Source: Streptomyces sp. CA-278952
GTDB taxonomy: Bacteria; Actinomycetota; Actinomycetes; Streptomycetales; Streptomycetaceae
Direction of reading: 5' to 3'
DNA length: 64,000 bases
Assembly (NCBI RefSeq): GCF_028747205.1
Contig: NZ_CP112880.1
Location: 1,736,001 to 1,800,000, forward strand
The notes below the pieces were generated by a model, which made no database searches, was not told where the DNA came from, and saw nothing but the letters and a program-made list of their open reading frames with translations. Position 1 is the first letter of the stretch; every line of letters starts with the position of its first letter. The position numbers and the translations under genes are program-made. This document shows, in pieces, positions 10,670-48,827 of this stretch.

Positions 10670-10843
10670 GCCGCCTCCCATATGTGGGCGAAAACGCCCT
10701 GAAGTGCCCAGATCTTCCCAGGCACAATGTGTGTCCGATGCTCCGGAAGCCGCACACGGCAGCCGGAAGCACATCTCATGTCGCCCTGCCGCCGGTCCGC
10801 AGTCATTTCCTCTGCGGGCACGGGCGTCCCGGGCGGGTACCGC

Positions 10844-45576: not shown

Positions 45577-45682
45577 GTCACTTGACGCAAGCACCACCAG
45601 TGGGTTGCATACGTTCTGTGATCACGCACCCGGCTTCCTATGCCACGTTCCGCATGACCGTACGGGCCGGAGGGTACGAGCC

Positions 45683-47383
45683 GTGGACCCGGTGATCGTC
45701 GTCGGCGCCGGGCCGGTCGGGCTGACGCTGTCGCTGGCCCTCGCCGCCCAGGGCGTCCCCTCGGTCGTTCTCGACGAGGGCCCCGGCACGGAGGAGCCCC
45801 GCCCCGCCCGCACGGTCGTGCTGCGCGACGACACCGCCGATCTGATGGGCCGCCTCGGCTGCCGGGAGCTGGACCGGGTCGGGCTGCGCTGGTCCGGGTG
45901 GCGTTCGATGCGCCGGAAGCAGCTGGTCCGCAACGTGCCGCTGAGCGGGGGCTGCGACGAGGCCGAGGCCCCGCTCTCCGGGCTCCTTCCCGCGCCGCTC
46001 CATGTTCCGCAACATGCGCTGAGCGCCGCGCTGCGTGCGGCGGCGGACAAGGAACCGCTGGTCCGGCGGGTGCCGCTGAGCCGGATCGACACACTGGAGC
46101 AGGACCCCGACGGCATCACGGTGCACACGAGGGAGCCGGGCCCGACCTGGTGGCGCGGGAGTTATCTGGTCGGCTGCGACGGCGCCAGGTCGACCGTGCG
46201 CAAGCTGCTGGACATCCGGTTTCCCGGCCGTACGGCGGTGGAGCGGCATGCCGTCGCCGCGCTCCGGGCCGAGCTGCCCTGGCCCGACCAGGCCGTCCTG
46301 CACCGGCAGCCCCCCTGGCGGACCGGGGGCGCCGAGGTCTCCGCCCGGCCGCTGCCGGACGGCGTATGGCGGCTGGACTGGCTGCTGCCGCCGCGTGGCG
46401 AACTGGTCACTCCCGAAGCTCTGATCACCCGTATCCGGGACACCCTGGCCGGCTGGTGCGGCGAGACCCCGGCGTACGAGCTGCTGGACACCGGCGTCCA
46501 CACGCTCCACCACCGGCTCGCCCGGCGCTGGCGCAAGCAGCGTGCCTTCCTGGCGGGGGACGCGGCGCACCTGCTGGGCGCCGTGGGCACGCAGGGACTG
46601 GACGAGGGGATCCGCGACGCCGAGAACCTGGCCTGGAAGCTGGCCCACGCCTGGCACCACGGCCCGGCCGAGCACCTCCTCGACAGCTATCAGACGGAGC
46701 GCCGGGCGGCGGTGGCCGCACGGCTGCGCGCCGCCGACCAGTCGCTGCCGATACTGCGCGGCGGAGGCGGCCTGCGGACCCTGGTCCCGGGTGCCGCACG
46801 TGGTCACGACACCCTGCTCTCCGACGGCCATCTGGGCTGCGGAGCCCTGGGTGCGCCCCCGTCGTACTCGCACTCCCCTCTTGCACCACCGCACACGGAG
46901 GCGCACGCCGTCGTCGGTACGCCCCCCGGTGCGCCGGTCGCCGATGTGACGGTGACCGCCCCGGACGGGACGACGGCGCGTCTGCGGGAGCGGCTCGGGC
47001 GGGGCCATCCGCTGGTGGTCCTGGTCGCGCCGGGGACCGGAGTCTGGGACCGGCGGCACTGGCAGACCGCGGGCGTCATGCCCCGCCTCACGGACGCCGT
47101 GGCGGCACTCCCCGGGTCGACGGAGCTACTGGTCACCGAGAGCTATCCGGGGGCGTCGGCCCACACGGTCCTGCTGGTGAGGCCGGACGGGCACCTGGTG
47201 GCCGCCTTCGGCGGCGTACGGCCCGCGGAGCTGCTCACCGCGGCACGGGCCGCTCTGGGCGGTGCTCCCCGCGAAGCGCGGGAGGCCGTGGAACCGGGCG
47301 ACGGCGGGGACGGACAGGACGGGGGGCGCGCGCAGGGGTCCCGGGCCCGGGTCCACGCCGACGGGACCGCCGGTCTCCACTGA
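45683..47383 (+). CDS. FAD-dependent aromatic-type monooxygenase
   Basis: Encodes 566 residues from GTG at 45683, with GGAGGG eight bases upstream; the frame opens earlier without a ribosome site. It is a class A flavoprotein hydroxylase. It has the Rossmann GAGPVGLTLSLALAAQG at residues 7-23, YLVGCDGARSTVRK (DG motif) near residue 170, and FLAGDAAHLLGAVGTQGLDEG (GD motif). The C-terminal 150 residues form a thioredoxin-like domain as in phenol hydroxylase and polyketide hydroxylases. GAVGTQGLDEG replaces the common P-x-x-GQGMN, so the flavin pocket is somewhat altered. The substrate is unknown; it stands alone with no biosynthetic cluster. Confidence 0.9.
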   Translation: MDPVIVVGAGPVGLTLSLALAAQGVPSVVLDEGPGTEEPRPARTVVLRDDTADLMGRLGCRELDRVGLRWSGWRSMRRKQLVRNVPLSGGCDEAEAPLSGLLPAPLHVPQHALSAALRAAADKEPLVRRVPLSRIDTLEQDPDGITVHTREPGPTWWRGSYLVGCDGARSTVRKLLDIRFPGRTAVERHAVAALRAELPWPDQAVLHRQPPWRTGGAEVSARPLPDGVWRLDWLLPPRGELVTPEALITRIRDTLAGWCGETPAYELLDTGVHTLHHRLARRWRKQRAFLAGDAAHLLGAVGTQGLDEGIRDAENLAWKLAHAWHHGPAEHLLDSYQTERRAAVAARLRAADQSLPILRGGGGLRTLVPGAARGHDTLLSDGHLGCGALGAPPSYSHSPLAPPHTEAHAVVGTPPGAPVADVTVTAPDGTTARLRERLGRGHPLVVLVAPGTGVWDRRHWQTAGVMPRLTDAVAALPGSTELLVTESYPGASAHTVLLVRPDGHLVAAFGGVRPAELLTAARAALGGAPREAREAVEPGDGGDGQDGGRAQGSRARVHADGTAGLH

Positions 47384-47418
47384 TCGATTGTCCGTCACGT
47401 GATCGATTGACCGTCACG
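47381..47418. repeat. Two adjacent 19-bp direct repeats at a promoter
   Basis: TGATCGATTGTCCGTCACG (47381-47399) and TGATCGATTGACCGTCACG (47400-47418) differ at one base. The difference creates TTGACC in the second copy. They immediately precede the leader peptide and may be an operator pair. Confidence 0.8.
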
Positions 47419-47435
47419 GGCGCGCGTGGTGTACT
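47407..47435 (+). promoter_or_regulatory. Promoter of the leader peptide-cdo unit
   Basis: TTGACC (47407-47412) and TGTACT (47430-47435) are spaced 17 bp. Transcription would begin about 47442, at or next to the leader ATG (47443). The leader peptide would then be translated from a leaderless message. Confidence 0.6.
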
Positions 47436-47442
47436 CCAGATC

Positions 47443-47529
47443 ATGACCGACACCGATGTGCGCCTGTGGCGGAGGGTCCATATGGACCTCGTCCGTTACG
47501 CGGGCTGCGTGTGTCGCCCGTCCTGCTGA
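47443..47529 (+). CDS. Cysteine leader peptide (28 aa)
   Basis: Encodes 28 residues ending [10 protein letters not shown], with three Cys codons in the last seven positions. The middle ([13 protein letters not shown]) matches the family of short 'R-R-x-H-x-D-L' leader peptides found before cysteine and sulphur metabolism genes in actinobacteria. Its stop lies 74 bp before the cysteine dioxygenase start. Such peptides sense cysteine: the ribosome stalls at Cys codons when charged tRNA-Cys is scarce and changes the fold of the downstream message. The ORF is probably leaderless. Position, length and composition all agree, so this is a firm call despite its size. Confidence 0.85.
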
Positions 47530-47605
47530 CTCGCCTCCCTCTGCCGGCGCGTGCCGTTTTCCGCACGGCCGGAAAACCGCGCGAACTCCTAGGACGGTCC
47601 TCGTG
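47518..47605 (+). promoter_or_regulatory. Attenuator-like RNA structures before cdo
   Basis: Three elements can be read. CCGTCCT (47518-47524), inside the last codons of the leader, is complementary to AGGACGG (47591-47597), which contains the only Shine-Dalgarno-like sequence of cdo. A hairpin, GTTTTCCG-CACGGC-CGGAAAAC, spans 47556-47577. AGGAC-G-GTCCT (47591-47601) is a local inverted repeat over the same ribosome site, two bases before the GTG at 47603. Ribosome occupancy of the leader should therefore control access to the cdo start. Confidence 0.65.
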
Positions 47606-48187
47606 TCTTCCCCTCGCTCCGCCGTGCCCACGGCAGCCGCTGTTCCTTCCCCTTCCGCCCCCGTGACCGGCGGCTCCGCAACCTCGTCCGCCGCCGCACC
47701 GACGGTCGCGGAGCTGATGGACTTCGTCCGCGGCGCCGCTCGGGACGAGGCGCTCATCGCCTCGTTGCCCCTCGATCCGGCGGGCCGCACCTGGATCCGG
47801 CTCGACGGACCGGGAGGCAGCGAAGCGTGGCTGATCGGCTGGCCGCCGGGCACCGGCACGGGCTGGCACGATCACGCCGACTCGTTCGGCGCGTTCACCA
47901 CCGTGGCCGGCGTCCTCAAGGAGCACTCGCTGGCCGTGCGGCTGCCCACCGATGGCTGGAAGACGCTGGAGCTGACGGACGGGGTGGACCGGGCGAGGAA
48001 CCTGGCGACCGGTCAGGGCAGGGCCTTCGGGCAGAACCACGTCCATGAGGTCCTCAACGAGTCCGAGGTCGCCCACGCGGTCTCCGTCCACGCCTACTAC
48101 CCGCCCCTGCCGCGGATCCGCCGGTTCAGCCGCACCGGCGCGGTGCTCCGCCTGGAGCAGACCGAGAGCCCGGAGGAGTGGCAGTGA
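47603..48187 (+). CDS. cdo: Cysteine dioxygenase
   Basis: Encodes 194 residues from GTG at 47603; the longer frame from 47456 runs through the leader and is rejected. Cysteine dioxygenase is an iron cupin that oxidises L-cysteine to cysteine sulfinate. The iron histidines are in [19 protein letters not shown] (H-D-H) and [10 protein letters not shown], as in type I bacterial enzymes. Residues 1-40 are Ala/Pro/Ser-rich and dispensable-looking. It is preceded by the cysteine leader peptide. It overlaps the rhodanese gene by four bases (GTGA), so both respond to the same control and probably serve cysteine or sulphide disposal. Confidence 0.93.
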
Positions 48188-48630
48188 GCGAGGACCGGAA
48201 CACGGACCGGGGCGAGGCCGTACCGGACGCCCCGACGCCCATGGGCATCGACGAACTGCTGGAGCGGGTCAGGGCCGGCTACGACCGGATCGGCCCGCCC
48301 GAGGCTGCCGCGGCGGCGGAGGCCGGGGCGCTCCTGGTGGACATCCGGTACGGGGCGCTCCGCGACCGGGACGGGCTGATCCCGGGCGCGCTGGTCGTCG
48401 AACGCAACGAACTGGAGTGGCGGCTCGACCCCCGGGGCAGCCACCGCGCCGCCGAAGCGGTCGGCCACGACCTGCGGATCGTCGTCATCTGCAACGAGGG
48501 CTACGCCTCCAGCCTCGCGGTCGCCTCGCTGCGGCAGCTGGGCCTGCACCGGGCCACCGACCTGATCGGCGGCTTCCAGGCGTGGCGCGGCGCGGGCCTT
48601 CCGGTCATCTCCGCCGCCACCTCCACCTGA
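48184..48630 (+). CDS. Rhodanese-like sulfurtransferase
   Basis: Encodes 148 residues from GTG at 48184, whose GGAGG at 48172-48176 lies inside the end of cdo; GTG at 48178 is too close to that site. It is a single rhodanese domain: LLVDIRYGALRDRDGLIPGA, the active Cys in VVICNEGYASSLAVASL, and LIGGFQAWRGAGLP. It transfers sulfane sulphur from thiosulfate or persulfides, and alongside Cdo it suggests persulfide or sulfite metabolism. The 4-bp overlap with cdo indicates translational coupling. Confidence 0.93.
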   Translation: MSEDRNTDRGEAVPDAPTPMGIDELLERVRAGYDRIGPPEAAAAAEAGALLVDIRYGALRDRDGLIPGALVVERNELEWRLDPRGSHRAAEAVGHDLRIVVICNEGYASSLAVASLRQLGLHRATDLIGGFQAWRGAGLPVISAATST

Positions 48631-48642
48631 CACCCGGGAGCT

Positions 48643-48671
48643 GACGCCCGGGTGCCTGGCACCCGGGCGTC
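48643..48671. terminator. Hairpin after the rhodanese gene
   Basis: GACGCCCGGGTGCC (48643-48656) and GGCACCCGGGCGTC (48658-48671) are perfect complements. With a realistic loop this leaves a stem of about 12 bp. The right arm belongs to the tandem repeat that follows. Confidence 0.7.
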
Positions 48672-48738
48672 AGGCACCCGGGCGTCAGGCACCCGGGCGT
48701 CAGGCATCAGGTGACAGGCATCAGGCATCAGGCATCAG
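48656..48738. repeat. 15-bp and 9-bp tandem repeats
   Basis: C(T/A)GGCACCCGGGCGT occurs three times from 48656 to 48700. It then degrades into CAGGCATCA units of 9 bp until 48738. The array fills the gap before the next gene. Confidence 0.85.
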
Positions 48739-48827
48739 CTCCGTTCGGACGTCACACACCCGAACGCCACGTTCCACTAGAGCAATCGCCGTGCGTGACC
48801 GACATTCGCCTCACACAGAGGACCGAA

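Follow-up and report, generated by a model that had tools for sequence, protein, structure and literature searches.

In a window of 64,000 nucleotides from Streptomyces sp. CA-278952 (contig NZ_CP112880.1, positions 1,736,001 to 1,800,000), a 28-codon open reading frame (ORF) encoding a cysteine (Cys) leader peptide precedes cdo, a gene for a thiol dioxygenase of the CDO_I family, and an overlapping rhodanese-domain gene. The leader belongs to a known family of putative leader peptides, it is conserved before cdo, and its tail is complementary to the cdo ribosome site. We think it rather probable that these parts form a cysteine-responsive translational attenuator, which controls cdo-rhodanese and turns it on when Cys-tRNA is short. 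Taken as a whole, the observation made in an earlier sequence-only reading of this DNA was confirmed, and its interpretation was partly supported. The core features are listed below. Counts among distinct relatives refer to 122 distinct leader-to-cdo sequences chosen on a GGACGG or GGATCGG ribosome site; L032, L052 and L143-L146 (not found) and L116, L132 and L142 (no chosen site and start) were left out.

47407..47435, + strand: promoter, TTGACC (47407-47412), 17 nt, TGTACT (47430-47435), then 7 nt to the leader ATG; assigned from sequence and conserved layout
47443..47529, + strand: Cys leader peptide, 28 codons, ATG at 47443, TGA at 47527-47529; NF042934 match
47512..47514, + strand: invariant Cys codon 24, TGT (family profile position 19); TGT in 122 of 122 distinct cdo leaders
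47518..47525, + strand: 5' arm of the predicted sequestering helix, CCGTCCTG, codons 26-28; pairs with 47590-47597 in the minimum-energy fold
47590..47597, + strand: cdo ribosome site (T)AGGACGG, 3' arm of the predicted sequestering helix; conservation and fold
47603..48187, + strand: cdo, CDO_I family thiol dioxygenase, 194 residues; Pfam PF05995, 153.5 bits (cut-off 23)
48178..48630, + strand: gene for a rhodanese-domain protein, overlapping the cdo end; Pfam PF00581, 44.7 bits

Conservation of the leader and of its codons

The Cys codons of the leader are codons 22 (47506), 24 (47512) and 28 (47524), which corresponds to a C-x-C pattern followed by a Cys four codons later rather than to the contiguous Cys run of the mycobacterial type. 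The peptide scored 37.1 bits against NF042934 (NCBIfam cis_reg_atten, putative leader peptide; curated cut-off 27), a family membership that the sequence-only reading had overlooked, and 18.3 bits against the Ms5788A equivalog model NF042933, below its cut-off of 45. The cdo GTG is at 47603, 73 nt after the leader stop codon; the earlier reading had recognised the 28-codon ORF correctly but placed it 74 bp before cdo. The exact complementarity between CCGTCCT (47518-47524) and AGGACGG (47591-47597), which it had also pointed out, was found as described. At gathering score, no Rfam family covered the locus, the sole match in the window being an nrdJ RNA at 10693-10774 (minus strand, 64.8 bits).

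Among named genomes, the leader was present in 79 of 80 cdo loci (the best 80 of 91 confirmed), the miss, L052, being truncated by a contig end. Codons were counted in 79 sequences, namely the window and 78 loci, after L032 (no anchor) and L052 (contig end) had been dropped. The leader has 28 codons in 75 of these sequences and 30 in 4. Codon 24 is TGT and codon 12 GTC in all 79, codon 11 is AGG in 71, and in the tail CCG occupies codon 26 in 75 and TCC codon 27 in 76; codon 5 is TGT or TGC in 37. Among the 122 distinct leaders, 1 lacks Cys22 and 8 lack Cys28, and every one has Cys24. The leader codons are frozen beyond amino-acid constraint: in columns with at least 94% amino-acid identity, for leader and cdo alike, mean codon entropy was 0.23 bits over 21 leader columns versus 0.77 bits over 103 cdo columns (p=3.8e-7).

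Across 293 genomes of the order, we found the leader in 248 and a cdo match in 285. As tallied from listings, with a close cdo defined by E at most 1e-60 and adjacency read in the fetched loci only, 246 of the 247 genomes that have a close cdo also carry the leader, as do 2 of the 46 others. The sole genome with a close cdo and no leader (G277) has none in the stretch read and no match at E 5, and its cdo lies beside other genes. As to the leaders without a close cdo, one is cut by a contig end (G284), and the other looks like a relic without cdo (G122). Where cdo is truncated or frame-broken, remnants without a leader were found in G183 and G018, and in G160 the leader is mostly lost and the cdo frame is broken. 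In this last locus (L161), a deletion joins the first leader codons to the frame of cdo, itself frame-broken.

Assignment of the promoter rests on conservation, because an automatic sigma-70 scan, which requires A at position 2 of the -10 element, found no promoter at the locus. A loose layout (TTGAC or TTGAT, 15-19 nt, T....T, then 4-10 nt up to the start codon) is shared by 120 of the 122 distinct relatives, the transcript start being predicted only. TTGACC is found in 116 of them, TGTACT in 81, a spacer of 17 nt in 108 and a distance of 7 nt to the start in 107. Since the -10 element ends 7 nt before the leader start codon, the message is probably leaderless, in agreement with what the sequence-only reading had suggested from the promoter spacing. 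The -35 region is spanned by a 19-bp tandem duplication (TGATCGATTG[T/A]CCGTCACG, window 47381-47418), of which the near relative L013 has a single copy in the stretch read. Directly upstream of the leader locus lies a FAD-dependent aromatic hydroxylase-like gene (window 45605-47383); in L154 and L156, a C-terminus similar to that of its product precedes a decayed cdo.

Predicted pairing of the leader tail with the cdo ribosome site

In the window, the tail CCGUCCUG (47518-47525) pairs with 47590-47597 in the predicted fold, with UCGC:GCGA inside and a hairpin at the centre. The fold z-score is -2.25 for 47515-47607, with 4 of 200 shuffles as good. The following elements complete the predicted structure.

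47531..47534, + strand: inner helix, TCGC with GCGA at 47581-47584; fold and clade comparison
47544..47572, + strand: hairpin between leader and ribosome site, varying in sequence and length across species; fold
47466..47499, + strand: hairpin inside the leader (GGGTCC-ATAT-GGACCT plus outer pairs), which also encodes the R-x-H-x-D-L motif; RNAalifold on 54 leaders, no two-sided change
47500..47504, + strand: possible anti-sequestor arm GCGGG, pairing with CCTGC at 47522-47526; RNAalifold, one-sided changes only

Among the 122 distinct sequences, the tail contains CCGTCC in 106 and the ribosome site is CAGGACGG in 115; GGACGG, the motif on which they were chosen, lies 10-13 nt upstream of the cdo start codon. 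In 108 of the 122 predicted folds, the leader tail pairs with 4 or more of the 6 GGACGG bases, so that in silico the mRNA structure would mask the ribosome site of the next gene. The hairpin announced by the sequence-only reading between leader and ribosome site was located at 47544-47572. A second, local hairpin that it had drawn at the ribosome site itself (AGGAC-G-GTCCT) was rejected: its loop is one base long and it is not conserved, many relatives reading AGGACGGTACC, AGGACGGTGCAC and others. In L069, L074, L075, L077 and L083, a second CAGGACC copy just before CAGGACGG provides two possible partners for the tail.

The inner helix lent itself to a comparison between clades. In the 106 distinct tail-site pairs, GCGAAC is found in 83 and CGATC in 10. 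Two clades that differ in this helix pair better within themselves (-21.6 and -19.9 kcal/mol) than across (-19.0 and -16.9 kcal/mol), an exchange that weakly supports a translational switch and that rests on 10 sequences of one clade. In the corresponding partner test, 0 of 2000 permutations were as good, relatedness not having been removed.

The release of the site was modelled by masking 29 bases around the P site to represent the ribosome and by computing the openness of AGGACGG, given as means of the 122 sequences. Mean accessibility was 0.04 in free RNA; a ribosome placed at Cys22 gave 0.05, one at Cys24 0.22, one at Cys28 0.28 and one at the stop codon 0.27. Among the positions tested, the site is thus released only from Cys24 onward, and only partly; the invariant Cys24 is the first Cys codon whose ribosome would cover the leader tail. 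The earlier proposal that a ribosome stalled at the Cys codons frees the cdo start holds in silico, and partially, for Cys24 and Cys28 but not for Cys22.

In the mechanism that we favour, the leaderless message would begin at the leader ATG. Undisturbed translation of the leader would allow its tail to pair with CAGGACGG, hiding the cdo ribosome site and keeping both cdo and the overlapping rhodanese gene off. If charged Cys-tRNA ran short, a ribosome would dwell at UGU codon 24 (or at Cys28) with its footprint over the tail, the helix could not form, and cdo-rhodanese would be translated.

Several results weigh against this mechanism. The tail-site helix is missing from 14 of the 122 folds, and in L126, L128 and L139 CCGTCC is lost yet GGACGG is kept. 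Another 13 sequences, forming a third group, favour the sites of the main clade (-22.6 kcal/mol) over their own (-18.6 kcal/mol). Over all sequences, the gain in the partner test was small (-21.0 kcal/mol for own versus -20.5 kcal/mol for foreign partners), and on average 40% of the foreign partners did better than the own one. No base pair was changed on both sides in RNAalifold alignments of 60 and 54 sequences, and covariation in the strict sense is therefore absent; the middle hairpin, not alignable by MAFFT, was outside this analysis, and the tail-to-site helix was not among the structures that RNAalifold itself drew from the 60-sequence alignment. Even when a ribosome occupies Cys24, the site stays mostly paired in silico (median 0.21, with 2 of 122 sequences reaching 0.5), and one placed at the stop codon opens the site to the same degree as one at Cys28. 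Because a slow stop codon would open the site equally, the fold model does not fix the sign of control.

Sister leaders and distant relatives also count against the pairing. Four sister leaders of this genome were folded (L006 was left out, its downstream start not having been located), and none shows tail-site pairing; in one of them, L005, the 5' end pairs with its ribosome site. Pairing of tail and site was thus rejected as a rule for the whole family, and the sign cannot be transferred from a shared architecture. Among five distant relatives, the pairing is kept by L145 and not by L142, L143, L144 or L146, an early reading of the L143 tail as pairing with its ribosome site having been ruled out by folding. 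In sum, the alignment of other Streptomyces, by which the sequence-only reading was to be checked, revealed strong conservation but no two-sided change; its translational switch draws support from conservation, from folding and, weakly, from the exchange of inner helices between clades, and none from the local hairpin.

Direction of control and rival explanations

The leader would place a cysteine-responsive switch before a gene expected to degrade cysteine. Among solved structures, those closest in sequence to the cdo product bear the name cysteine dioxygenase (E 2.2e-12); by its sequence the product is a CDO_I family member, with L-cysteine as its putative thiol substrate. For the rhodanese gene, the GTG at 48184 is the likelier start; tandem GC-rich repeats (GGCACCCGGGCGTCA) follow this gene at window positions 48650-48740. 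If the operon is on in shortage, the dioxygenase may serve to salvage sulfur, with cysteine or another thiol as the source of sulfite, and not to get rid of an excess.

The genes found behind related leaders are consistent with activation in shortage. In this genome, these leaders precede a ThiS-family gene and a cysteine synthase gene (L001), a nitrite/sulfite reductase gene (L002) and a gene for a two-domain rhodanese sulfurtransferase (L004), these three leaders being above the NF042934 cut-off; L005, before a gene for an SDF symporter, is below it. In other genera, the 5 downstream genes tested code for sulfurtransferases (2), a nitrite/sulfite reductase, a CbiX chelatase and a sulfonate-binding protein, identities that were assigned by Pfam and NCBIfam and are in several cases below equivalog cut-offs. 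We also counted in favour of this sign the fact that none of 81 Cdo sequences, each taken from the start of the match onward, contains a Cys and that the rhodanese has one Cys in all 74 sequences where it was seen (detection by pattern in 74 of 81 loci, with 7 misses).

Expression data point the other way. In the cited portions of two reports, cdo mRNA goes up in two feather-degrading Streptomyces when they are given keratin, which is cystine-rich (PMC7181669, PMC12763843). Two cdo genes of Streptomyces sp. SCUT-3 are up 50.2- and 8.3-fold in feather medium (PMC7181669), and at 96 h strain KK shows a rise of both its cdo genes and also of cysD, cysNC, cysC and cysH (PMC12763843). These induced genes may or may not correspond to the cdo gene described here, and the joint rise of cdo and cys genes in strain KK suits either sign.

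The same parts could thus operate with the opposite sign, with cdo on when cysteine is plentiful, an alternative that we consider unlikely but take seriously. Ribosome traffic to the stop codon would keep the tail covered, and in shortage a halt at Cys22 (or Cys5) would leave the tail free and the site hidden. The model accommodates this: the ribosome at Cys22 leaves the site closed and that at the stop codon opens part of it. A ribosome at Cys22 would also break the GCGGG:CCUGC pairing (47500-47504/47522-47526), which is mutually exclusive with the hiding helix, and would thereby favour the latter. Some support comes in addition from the Cys at codon 5 in part of the sequences and from the keratin data, and this direction is what one would expect for an enzyme that destroys cysteine. 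However, the invariant codon is 24 and not 22, codon 5 is variable, and related leaders precede sulfur-assimilation genes, for which activation in shortage makes sense. In strain KK, the rise of cdo coincides with that of the four cys genes, and mRNA data say nothing on translation. Between the two signs, we clearly prefer activation in shortage, without regarding the matter as settled.

That the leader acts on transcription rather than by masking the site, with a Rho site exposed or hidden by a stalled or absent ribosome or with premature termination, appears improbable to us. Rho was proposed for the cys leaders of Mycobacterium in the cited portion of Seliverstov et al. 2005 (PMC1262725), and the four sister leaders without tail-site pairing would fit such a mechanism. 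However, the intrinsic terminator of a classical transcription attenuator was not found, with 0 terminator-like sites in 47300-48800 (Rho sites were not searched), and the position of GGACGG upstream of cdo, in sequences chosen on that motif, together with the complementary CCGTCC in 106 tails, argues for masking. Another reading makes the ORF incidental and GGTCC-ATAT-GGACC a conserved DNA operator or RNA site for a protein, given that GTC (79/79), AGG (71/79) and the GGTCC/GGACC arms are fixed beyond amino acids; we hold it to be very improbable, as related leaders keep R-x-H-V-D-L with different codons and the ORF length is kept. Lastly, action of the 28-residue peptide in trans as a small protein, which its high amino-acid conservation might suggest, is scarcely credible, as the fixed synonymous codons, the constant place before cdo and the tail complementarity point to action in cis.

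The NF042934 family and known systems

A leader scoring above the NF042934 cut-off was found in 96 of 148 genomes of the class; at E 1e-4, matches were found in 54 of 81 genera and in 0 of 14 control genomes. We compared 35 leaders (29 class-wide and 6 of this genome) with 40 others selected for a wide coverage of genera (loci L001-L006 and L179-L247 in all); 72 of the leaders are distinct. The last profile position is Cys in 72 of 72 distinct leaders, encoded by TGT in 71 and by TGC in 1 (L006). Elsewhere, the first 34 distinct leaders have 38 TGC and 8 TGT before that position, Cys codons after position 19 being left out of the count, and the next 39 leaders have 37 TGC and 3 TGT before and after it; the longest downstream open frames have 88 TGC and 10 TGT. 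Poly-Cys leaders (L179, L181 and L182) contain several TGT after position 19 too. R6 and R13 never vary, and 71 of the 72 distinct leaders keep D10, the codons for these residues being varied (for R6, CGG 27, CGC 20, CGT 11, CGA 10 and AGG 4). As judged from these sequences, the family preserves one peptide motif (R-x-[HA]-V-D-L-x-R, with varied codons) plus one codon, UGU. The conservation at the amino-acid level is biased because the profile selected the hits; the codon bias is unaffected.

If one Cys-tRNA reads both UGU and UGC, the UGU rule cannot stem from differential charging of isoacceptors. Arrest peptides rely on a motif placed 6 to 13 residues ahead of the point where the ribosome pauses, and the motif of the leaders, 6 to 13 residues before the Cys, resembles this arrangement. 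On this basis, it is possible, though doubtful, that the leaders of this actinobacterial class are codon-gated arrest peptides and not plain hungry-codon attenuators. The nascent R-x-[HA]-[VI]-D-L-x-R would sit in the ribosome tunnel and would make the decoding of one UGU (by G-U wobble, not UGC) a sensor of the Cys-tRNA supply. In the case of cdo, a single pause would free the ribosome site of a thiol-oxidising enzyme during cysteine shortage.

The attenuator that we favour would add a thiol-oxidising operon to the leader-controlled genes that, where tested, serve sulfur supply. From the direction of control it would follow whether this actinobacterial Cdo removes cysteine or recovers sulfur, and the UGU rule bears on how ribosomes sense a scarce amino acid. 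Reportedly, Canestrari and colleagues proposed in 2020, for the polycysteine leaderless ORFs of mycobacteria, that a stalled ribosome keeps mRNA structure off the next ribosome site.

Cysteine-responsive leaderless short ORFs are known in mycobacteria, as related in the cited portions of papers that refer to them (PMC9031893, PMC9094748, PMC13236596). Like the mycobacterial polycysteine ORFs, the cdo leader is a short, probably leaderless ORF with Cys codons near its stop and a sulfur-metabolism operon downstream; unlike them, it has non-contiguous Cys, it precedes cdo-rhodanese and it scores below the NF042933 cut-off. The NF042934 model, whose cut-off it exceeds, covers only 19 residues and none of the RNA. 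In the cited portion of Seliverstov et al. 2005 (PMC1262725), Cys leaders were predicted before cys operons in Mycobacterium and P. acnes and before cbs in B. longum, with no conserved terminator hairpins for the mycobacterial ones. They share with the cdo leader a short ORF, Cys codons near the stop and no terminator; that portion names no Cys leader of Streptomyces. The closest architectural match that it offers is the LEU element, in which leucine codons pair with the leuA Shine-Dalgarno box.

In Streptomyces lividans, eight attenuators with leaderless leader peptides, as the present one probably is, were assigned to Leu, Trp, Ala, Ile, Met and Thr; in the cited portion of that report, none is called a Cys leader and none precedes cdo (PMC8079986). 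The metL leader of S. lividans, before metNIQ, ends RCMCRRMCAF, with three Cys (PMC8079986, Table 4), and may be a Cys leader misassigned to Met. In a literature search that had most subscription papers outside it, we recognised no report of either a Cys leader upstream of cdo or the UGU rule. The kind to which the cdo leader appears to belong is known from mycobacteria; a Cys leader on cdo and the UGU rule appear to be new.

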